Shown here: positions 20,980-27,478 of the stretch, in pieces
Position numbering within the stretch: the stretch's first letter is position 1
Layout of the letters: each line of letters starts with the position of its first letter
Program-made: the position numbers and the translations under genes
From: Prevotella sp.
GTDB lineage: Bacteria > Bacteroidota > Bacteroidia > Bacteroidales > Bacteroidaceae
NCBI GenBank assembly: GCA_016291915.1
Contig: JAEEZP010000304.1
Span: 1-33,428, forward strand
Length of the DNA: 33,428 bases
Direction of reading: 5' to 3'
Notes under the pieces: generated by a model
Told to the model about the DNA's origin: nothing
The model's input: the letters and a program-made list of their open reading frames with translations, nothing else
The model's database searches: none

Positions 20980-21567
20980 ATGGAAATTATTAGTTCATCC
21001 TATTTCATCGTTTACCTCATTATTCTCAATGTGATGACGTTCTTCGTGTATGGTCTTGATAAATTGAAGGCAAAGCGCAGGAAGTGGCGGATAAGAGAGG
21101 CGTCGTTGTTGCTGTTGGCTGTTCTCGGTGGCAGTATTGGAGCATGGCTGGGCATGAAGGTGTGGCATCATAAGACACAACATAAGAAGTTTAAGTATGG
21201 TGTTCCGCTGATTCTATTGGTACAGATTGTATTACTTTTTCTTTGTTCCTGTAGCAGTAAACAACAGTTGATGAGCGGAACAGAGGTGTTGTCATCAACG
21301 GTTGCTGAGTACTCCCCGACAGTGTTGATCGTGATGTACGACAAAGAGATTGGGAAACAACCGTTGTTGGATGCTATCAAAAAGTACAAGGCTACAATCA
21401 AATACGACTATCATCAGATTCCCGGCATGGCGATACAGAAGCCTGATGACATGACGCTTGAGGAGACAATGGCATTATTTAAAAAGGTAAAAGGTGTACA
21501 GACAGTGGAGTATGATTATGTGCATCGTCTCACGGATCCGGTAAGGCCGCGGCTTGAGACCCGTTGA
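20980..21567 (+). CDS. DUF1294 membrane protein fused to an I9/propeptide-like domain
   Basis: Residues 1-90 are a DUF1294 protein: a first helix (about 8-25), the conserved YGLDKLKAKRRKWRIRE, LAVLGGSIGAWLGM and HHKTQHKKFKYG, and a last helix (75-90). That last helix ends in FLCSCSSK, which also looks like a lipobox. Residues about 113-183 resemble the inhibitor-I9/subtilisin-propeptide fold: a strand (VLIVMYD), YHQIPGMAIQKPDDMTLEE, and a final VKGVQTVEYDYVHRL. Typical DUF1294 proteins stop after the last helix, so the C-terminal domain is an addition. Whether it is cytoplasmic or periplasmic depends on topology. Function is unknown for both parts. It may be an old fusion of a DUF1294 gene with a small lipoprotein gene. 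Confidence 0.8.
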   Translation: MEIISSSYFIVYLIILNVMTFFVYGLDKLKAKRRKWRIREASLLLLAVLGGSIGAWLGMKVWHHKTQHKKFKYGVPLILLVQIVLLFLCSCSSKQQLMSGTEVLSSTVAEYSPTVLIVMYDKEIGKQPLLDAIKKYKATIKYDYHQIPGMAIQKPDDMTLEETMALFKKVKGVQTVEYDYVHRLTDPVRPRLETR

Positions 21568-22249: not shown

Positions 22250-22816
22250 ATGGAAACCCAAATGATGATAGATAAGCGAGCTGAGAATGCTCATCTTGAA
22301 TTCAAGAAGCTTTATGGGAAATACTATAAAGCGTTGGTTATCCGTGCCTTCCAGTTTGTGTCTGACCGTGCCGTGGCAGAGGATATCGTGCAGGAAGTGT
22401 TTGCCAGTATGTGGGAGCGTGACGTGGATATCAAATCAGCGTCAGCCACACATATATATCTGTATAATGGTGTGCGCAACCGTTCGTTCAACTATTTGGA
22501 GCATCAGCAGGTAGAGCGTTCGTATATACAGAAGAAAATGCAGGAAATTCCTGAGTATGACATCAACGGCAGTGATGAAGAATTACGGATCACGGAAGCT
22601 ATCTTCGATCGTATCTTCACCTATATCGATCAGTTGCCTGAGAAGCAGCGTCAGGTAATCAGACTGATGTTGGAAGGAAAGAAGTTTGGTGAGATTGTGC
22701 AGGAATTGCAGTTGTCTGCCTCCACGGTGAAGACCCATCGCAAGCGTGCGATGACTTTCTTAAAATCTAAAATGACAGCTAAAGAATACCTGTTGTTTTT
22801 GCAGTTTTTCATTTAA
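22250..22816 (+). CDS. ECF-type RNA polymerase sigma factor
   Basis: A 188-residue sigma-70 family factor of the extracytoplasmic class. Region 2 (about 16-85) has FKKLYGKYYKALV and AEDIVQEVFASMWE. Region 4 (about 125-178) has LPEKQRQVIRLMLEGKKFGE and the DNA-binding helix SASTVKTHRKRAM. It belongs with the Bacteroidetes sigma factors paired with FecR and SusC genes, where it is held by the anti-sigma factor until the receptor binds substrate. It starts 25 nt after the flavoprotein gene. ATG at 22250 is assumed; 22262 and 22265 are possible. Confidence 0.95.
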   Translation: METQMMIDKRAENAHLEFKKLYGKYYKALVIRAFQFVSDRAVAEDIVQEVFASMWERDVDIKSASATHIYLYNGVRNRSFNYLEHQQVERSYIQKKMQEIPEYDINGSDEELRITEAIFDRIFTYIDQLPEKQRQVIRLMLEGKKFGEIVQELQLSASTVKTHRKRAMTFLKSKMTAKEYLLFLQFFI

Positions 22817-22899
22817 AAATATCATTTTATTCACTTTTTTTATTTTTCCTGTCATCTTTTTTATGAATTGTCTGTCTGAAAATAAAAAAGAAGACAATT

Positions 22900-24090
22900 A
22901 TGCATAAACAAGAAATAACGGATATCATTATTCGTTGTCTTTCGGGAGATGCATCGGATGCTGATCAGCAACAGTTAAAAGAATGGTTTGAAGCAGATGA
23001 GAAGCATCAGATGTTCTTTGACCGATTGGCAGCTACCCAGGATGTGGATGCACTTTATGATATCCATCATGAGGTGGATGTTGATAAGTCATGGAAGAGT
23101 TTCCTCCAGAAGTACAACTATCAGGAGCCCCAGACGAAAAAACGTAATTGGTGGCGATATGCCGCCACGATCCTATTGCTGTTTGTCGCTGGTGGTGGCT
23201 TATGGTATTTACAGTACACAAAAGTGGTTCCTCCAGTAATCTCTGAGGAGGTACAGCATGCTATGTATCAGAGTAAGGAGAGTGGCAAGCAGGCGGCAGA
23301 AGTAGATGTGCTCAGCGAGGAACTGAATAGTATTGATGAGCCGTTCGCTGTAACAGATGTTGTTTCGCAGTCCAACTCAAAGAAAGATCATTCTTCAGCC
23401 TTTACCCTTCAATCTTCTCTTTCCAAGGAGCAACTCCTAACGGCCCGCCGTATCACCACGAAACATGATAAGGAGTTTTGGGTGACTTTGGATGACGGTA
23501 CCTTGGTGCATCTTAATTACAACACTCGTTTGATTTATCCGGAGAAGTTCGGTAATTACAACCGTAATGTGATCCTTGAGGGCGAAGCCTATTTCATGGT
23601 GGCTAAGGATAAGAGTCGTCAGTTTGTTGTTCATACCCCCCAAGGAGACATCCAAGTATATGGTACAGAATTCAATGTGAAGACAATTGGATTCGAAGGA
23701 GATGAAAACGGGCTTTCCGAGACAAATATTGTTTTAGTGAAGGGTAGTGTGGGTGTCACTCCACAGAATGGCAAGGAGTTGATGATGAAGCCCGGTGAAC
23801 AGTGTAAGATCTCCGATACGCAGTGCGTGGTGGAGAATGTAGATGTAGAGCCTTATGTGGCATGGAACACCGGAACCTTTGTCTTTGAAGACTGTCCATT
23901 GGAGACTGCACTGAAGGTGCTCTCCCACTGGTATGGCTTCAATGTGGTTTATCTGAATGAGGATATCAAAAAGGAGCGTATCACCGGTGATTTCGATAAA
24001 TATATCAAGCCTAATCAGCTGTTGGATGCTATCAGTAAGTCATCCGGATTGATGATAAGAAGAGAAAATAACACCATATTTATTAAATAA
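22900..24090 (+). CDS. FecR-type anti-sigma factor
   Basis: A 396-residue single-pass inner-membrane protein. The cytoplasmic N-terminus (about 1-80, CLSGDASDADQQQLKEWF) would bind the sigma factor. The helix is at about 86-106 (RYAATILLLFVAGGGLWYL). Periplasmically, the FecR domain (about 175-290) contains EFWVTLDDGTLVHLNYNTRL and VILEGEAYFMVAKD. A DUF4974-like C-terminal domain (about 320-395, FEDCPLETALKVLSHWYGF) contacts the SusC STN domain. It lies 83 nt after the sigma gene and 10 nt before SusC. Its length and order are normal for the family. Confidence 0.95.
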   Translation: MHKQEITDIIIRCLSGDASDADQQQLKEWFEADEKHQMFFDRLAATQDVDALYDIHHEVDVDKSWKSFLQKYNYQEPQTKKRNWWRYAATILLLFVAGGGLWYLQYTKVVPPVISEEVQHAMYQSKESGKQAAEVDVLSEELNSIDEPFAVTDVVSQSNSKKDHSSAFTLQSSLSKEQLLTARRITTKHDKEFWVTLDDGTLVHLNYNTRLIYPEKFGNYNRNVILEGEAYFMVAKDKSRQFVVHTPQGDIQVYGTEFNVKTIGFEGDENGLSETNIVLVKGSVGVTPQNGKELMMKPGEQCKISDTQCVVENVDVEPYVAWNTGTFVFEDCPLETALKVLSHWYGFNVVYLNEDIKKERITGDFDKYIKPNQLLDAISKSSGLMIRRENNTIFIK

Positions 24091-24100
24091 CCTAAAAATT

Positions 24101-27100
24101 ATGGAGAGAATGCAGAAAAGCAAAAGCAGAATGCTGTCTGTATTATTATCAATTGTCTTAATGTGCGTGGCTTTCCCCTCGCATGTTCAGGCGCAGAATA
24201 ATCAGACAGGGAAGAAAGATCTGGTGACTCTCGACATGAAGTCAGCAACCGTCACCCAAGTATTCCGACAGATTAAAGAACAGACGGGATACCACTTTGT
24301 GATCAACAGTGATCTTGCCTCCTCATTGCCAAAGGTTAATGTGCAGGTGAAAAACAAGTCAGTGCCTGAGGTACTCGACATTGTTTTGGCCAACCTTGAT
24401 TGTGCGTATGAGATCAATGGGAACATGATCACTGTGTATAAGAAGTCTGTTCCCAGAACAGTGACTAGTGTACCGGCGACCACCAACCCAACTGGCAGAA
24501 GGGTGGCCCTGCGTGGTGTCGTTTCCGATGACAGTGGTAATCCACTGCCGGGTGCAACCGTTAAGGTTGACGGCGGAAACGAGATGACGGTAAGCGATGC
24601 CGACGGTAATTACACCCTTTATGTAGATGCCAACGAGAAGCGCAGTATCGTTTATTCGTTCGTCGGCATGGAGGACAAGAAAGTACGTTACAATGGACAG
24701 CGTGTACAGGATGTTCGCCTACGTGACGACAGTCATGTACTCGGTGAGGTAGAGGTGTTCGGCAACGGTATCTTCAAGCGCCGTACCGAGAGCTTTACCG
24801 GTAGTGCAGCAACGTATAACCAGGAGGACTTAAAGAGTGTGGGTAATGCCAATATCCTGAAGAGTCTTGCCGACCTGGATCCGTCGTTTATCCTTGAAGA
24901 CAACGTGCTCAACGGTAGTGACCCGAATGCTCTGAATGACATCACCATCCGTGGTAATGCATCGTTTGCAGGCTTGCAGGGAGAATATTCCGGTAACCCG
25001 AACTCACCGCTCTTCATCATCGACGGTTTCGAGTCATCACAACAGCAAGTGTTCGACCTCGATATCAACCGTGTGGAGAATGTGACGATTCTGAAGGATG
25101 CTGCTGCCAAGGCTATCTATGGAGCCAAGGCTGCTAACGGTGTCGTGGTTGTTGAGACCAAACAGCCGGAGGCAGGACGTATCCGTCTGACTTACACCGG
25201 TGATGTGAATGTCACAGCTCCTGACTTGAGCAGTTATGACCTGACAAATGCTGAGGAGAAACTGCTTGTGGAAAAGAACTCCGGTCGTTATGACGCCAGC
25301 TCTCCTTCTTTTGCACAGAGTTATCGTGAGCAGTATAATGAGATTCAGAAGAATATCTCTCGCGGTGTGGACACTTATTGGTTGGCAAAACCACTTCGTA
25401 CAGGTGTCGGACATAAGCATACTATTTATATGGAAGGTGGTGACGACAGAATGCGTTACAGTGGAACAGTTTCTTACAACGGTGTAACCGGTGTTATGAA
25501 GGGTTCTGATCGTAGAACAGTCTCCGGAAATATCCAGTTGAGCTACCGCTATAAGACATTGCTCTTCCGTAACTCACTGAGTATTACCTCTAATAAGGCA
25601 GACAACTCTCCTTACGGATCCTTCTCCAGCTATTCTTCAGCTAACCCTTATTTCTCACCATATGATGAGAACGGTAACCTGGTAAAGGTGCTGGGATATT
25701 TCCAAAATCCAGGAACAGGTGGTTCACGTACCACTTACTACAATCCATTATATAATGCCACAATCGGCACAAAGGATTTCTCAAAATACAACGAATACAC
25801 CGAAAACTTCTATATAGAGTGGCGTCCCACCAAGCAATGGACCTTCTTAGGACGTTTCGGTTATACACATCAGGATAACCAGAGTGATGTGTTCTATCCC
25901 GGTGACCATACACGATTCACTGAGTGGACGGGAGACAGATACTTCCAGCGTGGATCTTACTCCATGACAAACGGTAACAGTGAGAATATCTCTGCCGACC
26001 TTGCAGGTACCTATACCGGCAGATGGGATAAGCACTTGCTCATTGCCAATGCTGCATGGAGTATGAACTCCAGTTCTTCTTATACCCACGGTATGGAAGC
26101 ATGGGGATTCCTCAACAACCATGTTGACTATATCAACTTCGCTAAGCAGTATGCAGAGAATGGTCGCCCGTCAGGTTCTGAGGCTAAGACTCGTTCACTG
26201 GGTATCACAGGTACTGCCAACTATTCTTATGATGAGCGTTATCTCTTTGACTTCTCCGTACGTTACAACGGTTCTTCCATCTTCGGATCTAACAACCGCT
26301 GGGGTACTTTCTGGTCAACCGGTATTGGTTGGAATATCCATAACGAGAAGTTCGTGAAAGAGAATATGCGTTGGATTAATCAGTTTAAGATCCGTGGCAG
26401 TTATGGACTTACCGGTAGCCAGAACTTCAGCCCATATCAAGCATTGGCTACCTATCAGTTCTATGACAACATCGTTTATGACAATATCGTAGGTGCTTAC
26501 CTGATGGCTGTCAACAACGATAACCTGAAGTGGCAGCAGACAGCCGACCTGAACTTCGGTGCTGATATCCGACTGTTTAACTCACTTAGTCTGAGAATCG
26601 ATGTCTATAACAGCACGACGAAGGATGCGCTCCTCGCCATGACACTGCCTACCTCTACTGGATTCAACTCCTATCAGGAGAACCTCGGTAATATCGTCAA
26701 TAAAGGTTTTGACGCATCTGCCAGCTGGCGCTTCTTCCACAAAGGACATAACTATATGTCATTGAATGGATCAGTAAGCCATAATACGAATAAGGTGAAG
26801 GAGATTAACGACGCCCTCCGCTCATTCAATGAGACACAGGATGCAACAGGTGTTACTACCCCAATCATCCGTTATGAGGAAGGACAGTCAATGTCTGTCA
26901 TCTGGGCCGTTAAATCACTGGGTATCGACCCTGCAACCGGTCAAGAGGTATTCGTGAAGAAAGACGGTAGTACAACCTATAACTATTCTACCGACGACTA
27001 TATCGTAGCCGGTGACAGTAATCCTAAATGGCGTGGAAATTTCGGTTTGAGCGGTGAGTATGAGGGTATCGGACTGAACATATCATTCCGTTATCGTCTG

Positions 27101-27478
27101 GGTGGTGATGTTTACAACCAGACCCTCGTTGACCGTGTGGAGAATGTGAATGTGGCTAACAACGTTGACCGCCGTGTGCTCAAAGACACTTGGCATCAGG
27201 TAGGCGACGTGGCAACCTTCAAGCGTATCAGATACACGCCGTCAACAACGTATGCTACCACTCGTTTCGTGGAACGTGATAATATCCTTGAGCTTGCATC
27301 ACTTTCTGCATACTATGACTTCAAGTATCAGTCATGGCTGCACAATCTGAAGATGGAGCGCCTGCGCGTACAGTTCTATATGAACGATATCTTCCATCTG
27401 TCAACGGTGAAGCAGGAGCGCGGTCTCTCTTATCCGTATGCCCGCAGTTTCTCGTTCTCGATATCCGCAACATTCTAA
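24101..27478 (+). CDS. SusC/RagA-type TonB-dependent receptor with N-terminal STN domain
   Basis: An outer-membrane importer of 1125 residues. In order: signal peptide (to about residue 32, ending HVQAQ); an STN signalling domain (about 40-112, LVTLDMKSATVTQVFRQIKE); a carboxypeptidase-regulatory-like domain (about 133-215, VALRGVVSDDSGNPLPGATV); a plug with IIDGFESSQQQ and ILKDAAAKAIYG-type sequence; and a long beta barrel ending in aromatic ATF. The STN domain is present only in transducer-type receptors and matches the sigma/FecR pair upstream. The imported substrate is unknown; SusC proteins carry oligosaccharides, peptides or chelated metals. Confidence 0.97.
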   Translation: MERMQKSKSRMLSVLLSIVLMCVAFPSHVQAQNNQTGKKDLVTLDMKSATVTQVFRQIKEQTGYHFVINSDLASSLPKVNVQVKNKSVPEVLDIVLANLDCAYEINGNMITVYKKSVPRTVTSVPATTNPTGRRVALRGVVSDDSGNPLPGATVKVDGGNEMTVSDADGNYTLYVDANEKRSIVYSFVGMEDKKVRYNGQRVQDVRLRDDSHVLGEVEVFGNGIFKRRTESFTGSAATYNQEDLKSVGNANILKSLADLDPSFILEDNVLNGSDPNALNDITIRGNASFAGLQGEYSGNPNSPLFIIDGFESSQQQVFDLDINRVENVTILKDAAAKAIYGAKAANGVVVVETKQPEAGRIRLTYTGDVNVTAPDLSSYDLTNAEEKLLVEKNSGRYDASSPSFAQSYREQYNEIQKNISRGVDTYWLAKPLRTGVGHKHTIYMEGGDDRMRYSGTVSYNGVTGVMKGSDRRTVSGNIQLSYRYKTLLFRNSLSITSNKADNSPYGSFSSYSSANPYFSPYDENGNLVKVLGYFQNPGTGGSRTTYYNPLYNATIGTKDFSKYNEYTENFYIEWRPTKQWTFLGRFGYTHQDNQSDVFYPGDHTRFTEWTGDRYFQRGSYSMTNGNSENISADLAGTYTGRWDKHLLIANAAWSMNSSSSYTHGMEAWGFLNNHVDYINFAKQYAENGRPSGSEAKTRSLGITGTANYSYDERYLFDFSVRYNGSSIFGSNNRWGTFWSTGIGWNIHNEKFVKENMRWINQFKIRGSYGLTGSQNFSPYQALATYQFYDNIVYDNIVGAYLMAVNNDNLKWQQTADLNFGADIRLFNSLSLRIDVYNSTTKDALLAMTLPTSTGFNSYQENLGNIVNKGFDASASWRFFHKGHNYMSLNGSVSHNTNKVKEINDALRSFNETQDATGVTTPIIRYEEGQSMSVIWAVKSLGIDPATGQEVFVKKDGSTTYNYSTDDYIVAGDSNPKWRGNFGLSGEYEGIGLNISFRYRLGGDVYNQTLVDRVENVNVANNVDRRVLKDTWHQVGDVATFKRIRYTPSTTYATTRFVERDNILELASLSAYYDFKYQSWLHNLKMERLRVQFYMNDIFHLSTVKQERGLSYPYARSFSFSISATF

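Follow-up and report, generated by a model that had tools for sequence, protein, structure and literature searches.

The window analysed here, a 33,428-nucleotide stretch of Prevotella sp. DNA (contig JAEEZP010000304.1), carries a gene in which a DUF1294 membrane domain runs on into a domain resembling subtilisin propeptides. Is such a gene real and, if so, what does it specify? The first-pass annotation had placed a DUF1294 and inhibitor-I9-like fusion at 20980-21567, and we confirmed these exact coordinates: the frame is open on the + strand from an ATG start to a TGA stop and, at 195 aa, exceeds the ~90 aa of stand-alone DUF1294 proteins. Our main reading, to which we give a probability of about 0.5, is that the gene encodes a two-part precursor that is cleaved into a DUF1294 protein and a subtilase-inhibiting I9 lipoprotein. 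Its features are listed below.

20980..21567, + strand: whole fusion gene, 195 aa plus stop; homologous full-length fusions are known
21028..21192, + strand: DUF1294 domain (PF06961), residues 17-71; profile match with E 2.6e-25
21160..21201, + strand: basic loop VWHHKTQHKKFKYG, residues 61-74; putatively cytoplasmic by the positive-inside rule
21202..21249, + strand: hydrophobic helix 3 of DUF1294, residues 75-90; seen by hydropathy and conserved in relatives
21241..21252, + strand: lipobox L88-C89-S90-C91; Cys invariant in intact I9 fusions and stand-alone lipoprotein relatives
21253..21309, + strand: flexible linker, residues 92-110; pLDDT ~50 or lower
21310..21519, + strand: I9-like domain, residues 111-180 (~106-185 in wider bounds); beta-alpha-beta-beta-alpha-beta
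21520..21534, + strand: VHRLT, residues 181-185; probable position from ungapped extension of the alignment
21535..21564, + strand: C-terminal extension DPVRPRLETR, 10 residues; past the P1-equivalent position

The window assembly is fragmented (308 contigs), which speaks for an assembly or frameshift artefact that joined two genes. A survey for the same fusion nevertheless recovered it in many other assemblies, with ~25 intact, mostly independent loci in Prevotella and in four or more neighbouring genera (g10, g17, g19 and g21); other copies come from contigs 80-260 kb long, in part from genomes that are 99% complete. One relative, found in the rumen of water buffalo, shares 87% identity with the window protein over its full length, and dN/dS between these two copies is ~0.11 in both halves, each of which is under purifying selection. 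Because the same junction recurs in many unrelated assemblies and both halves are under purifying selection, the artefact was rejected as extremely improbable, and we regard the fusion as real with near certainty. The first-pass suggestion of a merged pair of genes stands in an evolutionary sense: the I9-like part also exists alone as an ordinary lipoprotein, and its most distant relatives are unfused under midpoint rooting. The view that the fusion had no prior description also held for the papers searched.

The DUF1294 half is complete. PF06961 scored 88.9 bits (cut-off 25) with all 55 positions matched, the first helix begins near residue 4-9, and all conserved motifs and the three hydrophobic segments are in their normal places. 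Stand-alone DUF1294 is common within the family, and sampled DUF1294 frames from other families of the phylum were nearly all short, with 2 long open frames; unlike these stand-alone-like frames, the window copy runs on into what would be exported cargo. Unfused DUF1294 proteins mostly end 11-23 residues past P76 (median 17). A cut at C91 would leave 14 residues after P76, and it is the only way in which the window protein regains a typical DUF1294 length (90 residues). Judged from titles and the first parts of abstracts, the literature on DUF1294 held no paper concerning its function.

The first-pass annotation had likened the downstream domain to subtilisin propeptides. The fervidolysin N-terminal prodomain-like family (PF22148) matched the window copy at 24.4-26.4 bits, above the curated cut-off of 21, and matched 16 of 21 relatives at E up to 0.1. 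Peptidase inhibitor I9 proper (PF05922) had no match listed for the window copy and was found in 7/21 relatives (best E 2.6e-5). An AlphaFold2 model built from 40 related sequences gave the domain a pLDDT of ~97. The top PDB match of the modelled domain was 2z2y_B, the Tk-subtilisin propeptide (probability 1.00, target TM-score 0.83); the best matches were all Tk-subtilisin propeptides, and those of subtilisin BPN' and fervidolysin stood lower in the list. The domain profile also matched Tk-SP from sequence alone (E 4e-4). The C-terminal part is thus predicted to have the subtilisin-propeptide (I9) fold, as the first reading had proposed.

With the propeptides of fervidolysin and Tk-subtilisin, and with the free I9 inhibitors YIB2 and POIA1, the domain shares this fold and a conserved G-V-x-x-V-E-x-D end, and its distant relatives place their C-terminus identically. 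Unlike subtilisin propeptides it is not joined to an S8 catalytic domain, a profile search having found none in the fusion ORF, and none was recognised alongside; unlike either group it is attached to a membrane protein by way of a lipobox and has an additional C-terminal decapeptide. We considered and rejected a subtilase propeptide of Prevotella as the source of the domain, profile A2 giving strong matches to I9-like genes only and weak ones to short parts of other long frames. The NCBIfam 'lipo-invert' C-terminal anchor was rejected likewise (16.4 bits, cut-off 37).

Each half also occurs without the other. Where the I9-like domain stands alone it is secreted or is a lipoprotein, and its N-terminal signal is of the usual kind (L014, L146, L148, L149 and L151, and further L154, L156, L158 and L160), and in L014, L158, L159 and L160 the signal is an ordinary lipoprotein signal followed by a mature start resembling that of the fused copies. 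A tree of the domain, with a midpoint root only and weak support, placed all 25 fused and six unfused copies in a group of 31, with the distant unfused copies outside. Three of those six (L053, L006/L040 and L008) have lost the DUF1294 core and retain helix 3 and the lipobox as an N-terminal signal peptide, which is the strongest evidence that this helix works as one. The tree built for the DUF1294 half had too few columns; in it, fused copies were scattered among unfused ones, and this suggests repeated loss, gain or recombination, and the tree does not tell which. In the pair that gave the dN/dS values, the window gene and L031:4197-4781, pS was 0.50 in the C-terminal half and 0.25 in the DUF1294 half, a gap that suggests module exchange or recombination.

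The last DUF1294 helix ends in FLCSC (residues 87-91), in which the first-pass annotation had seen a lipoprotein signal. The resemblance is real and the Cys conserved: none of the intact I9 fusions lacks it (the tree set holds 25), whereas a Cys at this position after S/A/G/T was seen in 1 of 91 unfused DUF1294 rows. The single exception seen among the fusions, L049, reads TSY, with Tyr in place of the lipobox Cys, and its I9 domain is truncated too. The window copy has an unusual residue at position -2 (C89; T in most relatives). As in bacterial lipoproteins generally, a basic n-region, a hydrophobic stretch and a lipobox Cys are followed by an unstructured linker; the difference is that the signal of the fusion is internal, downstream of two other hydrophobic segments, although it is N-terminal in L053, L006 and L008. 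At the mature N-terminus the Cys is not followed by the K-(D/E)2 motif for surface export, and a lipoprotein facing the periplasm is therefore predicted as more likely, the motif having been defined in genera other than that of the host (PMC5080379).

We propose the following route. On inserting into the inner membrane, DUF1294 would leave its basic loops on the cytoplasmic side, in keeping with the positive-inside rule. Strong basicity marks residues 28-40 and 61-74 but not the N-terminus, so both loops are best placed in the cytoplasm and helix 3 would run outward. The middle hydrophobic segment, which the model breaks at residue 50 with modest confidence, would then be a short hairpin. Helix 3 (residues 69-91 in the model) would act as an internal type II signal peptide, with residues 61-74 as its n-region and 75-90 as its h-region. 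The downstream domain would be exported, C91 would be lipidated as residue 1 of the mature lipoprotein, and signal peptidase II (LspA) would cut before it. The products would be a DUF1294 protein of 90 residues and a ~105-residue lipoprotein with a subtilisin-propeptide fold, which would most probably inhibit an envelope subtilase in the manner of free I9 inhibitors. Topology, lipidation, cleavage and protease inhibition are all inferred. Export of the C-terminal domain is very probable, and lipidation with cutting by LspA somewhat more probable than its opposite.

Action of a signal peptidase on such a precursor has a precedent in LtaS of Staphylococcus aureus, in which SpsB cuts after the polytopic part and so parts an extracellular domain from it (PMC10865820). 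SpsB is a type I peptidase and releases an enzyme, whereas a type II peptidase and a lipoprotein are proposed here. In the papers searched, action of a type II signal peptidase at the final helix of a protein that crosses the membrane several times was undescribed, and our scheme predicts that the enzyme is capable of it. The bc1 polyprotein of B. japonicum is a further precedent, to which we attach no weight here; the literature searched yielded nothing usable on it or on internal lipoprotein signals.

Other cargoes follow DUF1294 in the same way. These are SBP_bac_3 (L011, L046, L051 and L173); a class A beta-lactamase resembling subclass A2, from two genera (L143:792-1964 and L175:1512-2735); a GH42/GH35-like enzyme with DUF5597 (L015/L176); YccF, an inner-membrane domain (L168:24-635); and two unnamed domains. 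One of these, with the motif GGWYN...YYFDSTR, follows a DUF1294 lipobox (L007:832-1800, L009:1078-1833, L043:5971-6900 and L157:431-1474), precedes the I9-like domain in L007, L043 and L157, and had no Pfam or NCBIfam match in the copies tested. The other (L069/L164/L167; L164:2266-2856, L167:2271-2915) comes without a conserved lipobox Cys, and in genome G570 a fusion of this type lies ~11 kb from an I9 fusion. The named cargoes, YccF apart, belong to families expected to act outside the cytoplasm. The beta-lactamase is a natural topology reporter, since its fusions make sense only with the C-terminus outside, and through such reporters DUF1294, whose function is unknown, gains a testable topology. 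A Cys near the lipobox position was seen in L143 and none in L175. Because L175, L176 and L164 all lack the lipobox Cys, helix 3 can also precede cargo that is uncleaved or differently cleaved, and it may by itself anchor these few. We advance only tentatively the wider view that in Prevotella and its relatives the last DUF1294 helix is a reusable internal lipoprotein signal, that exported domains of unrelated kinds were attached to it time and again, and that LspA splits each chimera into DUF1294 and a lipoprotein, which would make a natural polyprotein platform of DUF1294 genes.

These cargoes bear on whether the fusion is cut at all. If it stayed whole, DUF1294 would tether the I9-like domain to the inner membrane on its periplasmic side, much as the first-pass annotation had imagined in proposing a membrane-anchored inhibitor; the ability of helix 3 to anchor alone before Cys-less cargo and the conservation of both halves in one frame are what this would lead one to expect. 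It would nevertheless leave the invariant lipobox Cys without a role, and the core-less copies retain signal and lipobox, so that the anchor is dispensable. A membrane-anchored inhibitor is thus possible, but an internal cleavable signal is favoured over a permanent DUF1294 anchor because a cut at C91 gives two products of normal length and because three relatives dropped the DUF1294 core and kept helix 3 at their N-terminus. We consider the uncut form rather unlikely. Separate translation of the I9 lipoprotein from an internal ATG at M59 is still harder to credit: MKVWHHKTQHKKFKYGVPLILLVQIVLLFLCSC does resemble an ordinary type II signal, and the N-termini of stand-alone copies are similar, but M59 lies within GAWLGM, a DUF1294 motif conserved whether or not the protein is fused, and is for that reason no evidence of a start.

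Cleavage at C91, which we prefer, leaves the role of the released domain to be judged from its fold and C-terminus, on which the inhibitor reading is based. A subtilase propeptide inhibits by means of its C-terminal tail, which occupies the active site much as a product would, and the potency of YIB2 and POIA1, two free inhibitors from fungi, changes when their C-terminal residues are replaced (PMC10580911). VHRLT may be the counterpart of that tail: by ungapped extension of the alignment, T185 would pair with the P1 residue that ends the processed propeptide of Tk-subtilisin, and 7 of 11 distant relatives terminate exactly at the T185 equivalent, as does the processed propeptide. The DPVRPRLETR-type extension is conserved in the fused clade and absent from most distant relatives, and ten residues beyond P1 are atypical for an I9 inhibitor. 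This tail, the lack of a recognised linked protease, the sparse match to I9 proper and the fusion of one relative to a GH53 glycosidase would all suit an I9-fold domain with another job, such as peptide binding or aiding the folding of envelope proteins, cleaved or not. That the top fold matches are all subtilisin propeptides, and that distant relatives stop precisely where a processed propeptide does, argue for inhibition instead. On balance we put subtilase inhibition at even odds and another job at a substantial minority chance. Should the inhibitor reading hold, free I9-like lipoproteins of gut and rumen Prevotella become candidate envelope protease inhibitors.

A partner protease was sought nearby and in the host genomes. 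Inspection by eye, in which not all neighbours were profiled, recognised no protease gene beside the fused or stand-alone copies examined, and gene neighbourhoods differ between loci. The only S8 match in the host genome sits on another contig, and its propeptide did not match profile A2. An S8 subtilase is encoded in 29 of the 30 genomes searched, all of them carriers; because subtilases are so common in these genomes the co-occurrence says little, allowing the inhibitor idea without testing it.

The I9-like domain gave a strong match in ~24 of 301 sampled genomes of the family, one per genome, and no match in the other 296 sampled across the phylum; among the sampled genomes the fusion, too, was seen only within the family. 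Nothing convincing in the way of direct repeats or a cassette structure was seen around the gene. Three I9 fusions (L045, L048 and L049) are in decay. In L044 the fusion is preceded, ~1.7 kb upstream, by a separate SBP_bac_3 gene. At L152:1007-2407 the I9-like domain forms the C-terminus of a GH53 glycosidase. By eye, window positions 22250-27478 encode consecutively an ECF sigma factor, a FecR-like anti-sigma factor and a SusC-like receptor; upstream of this row are a GH31-like enzyme and an esterase, and the region looks like an ordinary polysaccharide locus. Finally, in L115 and L132 a DUF1294 with the lipobox CSSC continues for just ~25 residues, like a miniature lipoprotein.
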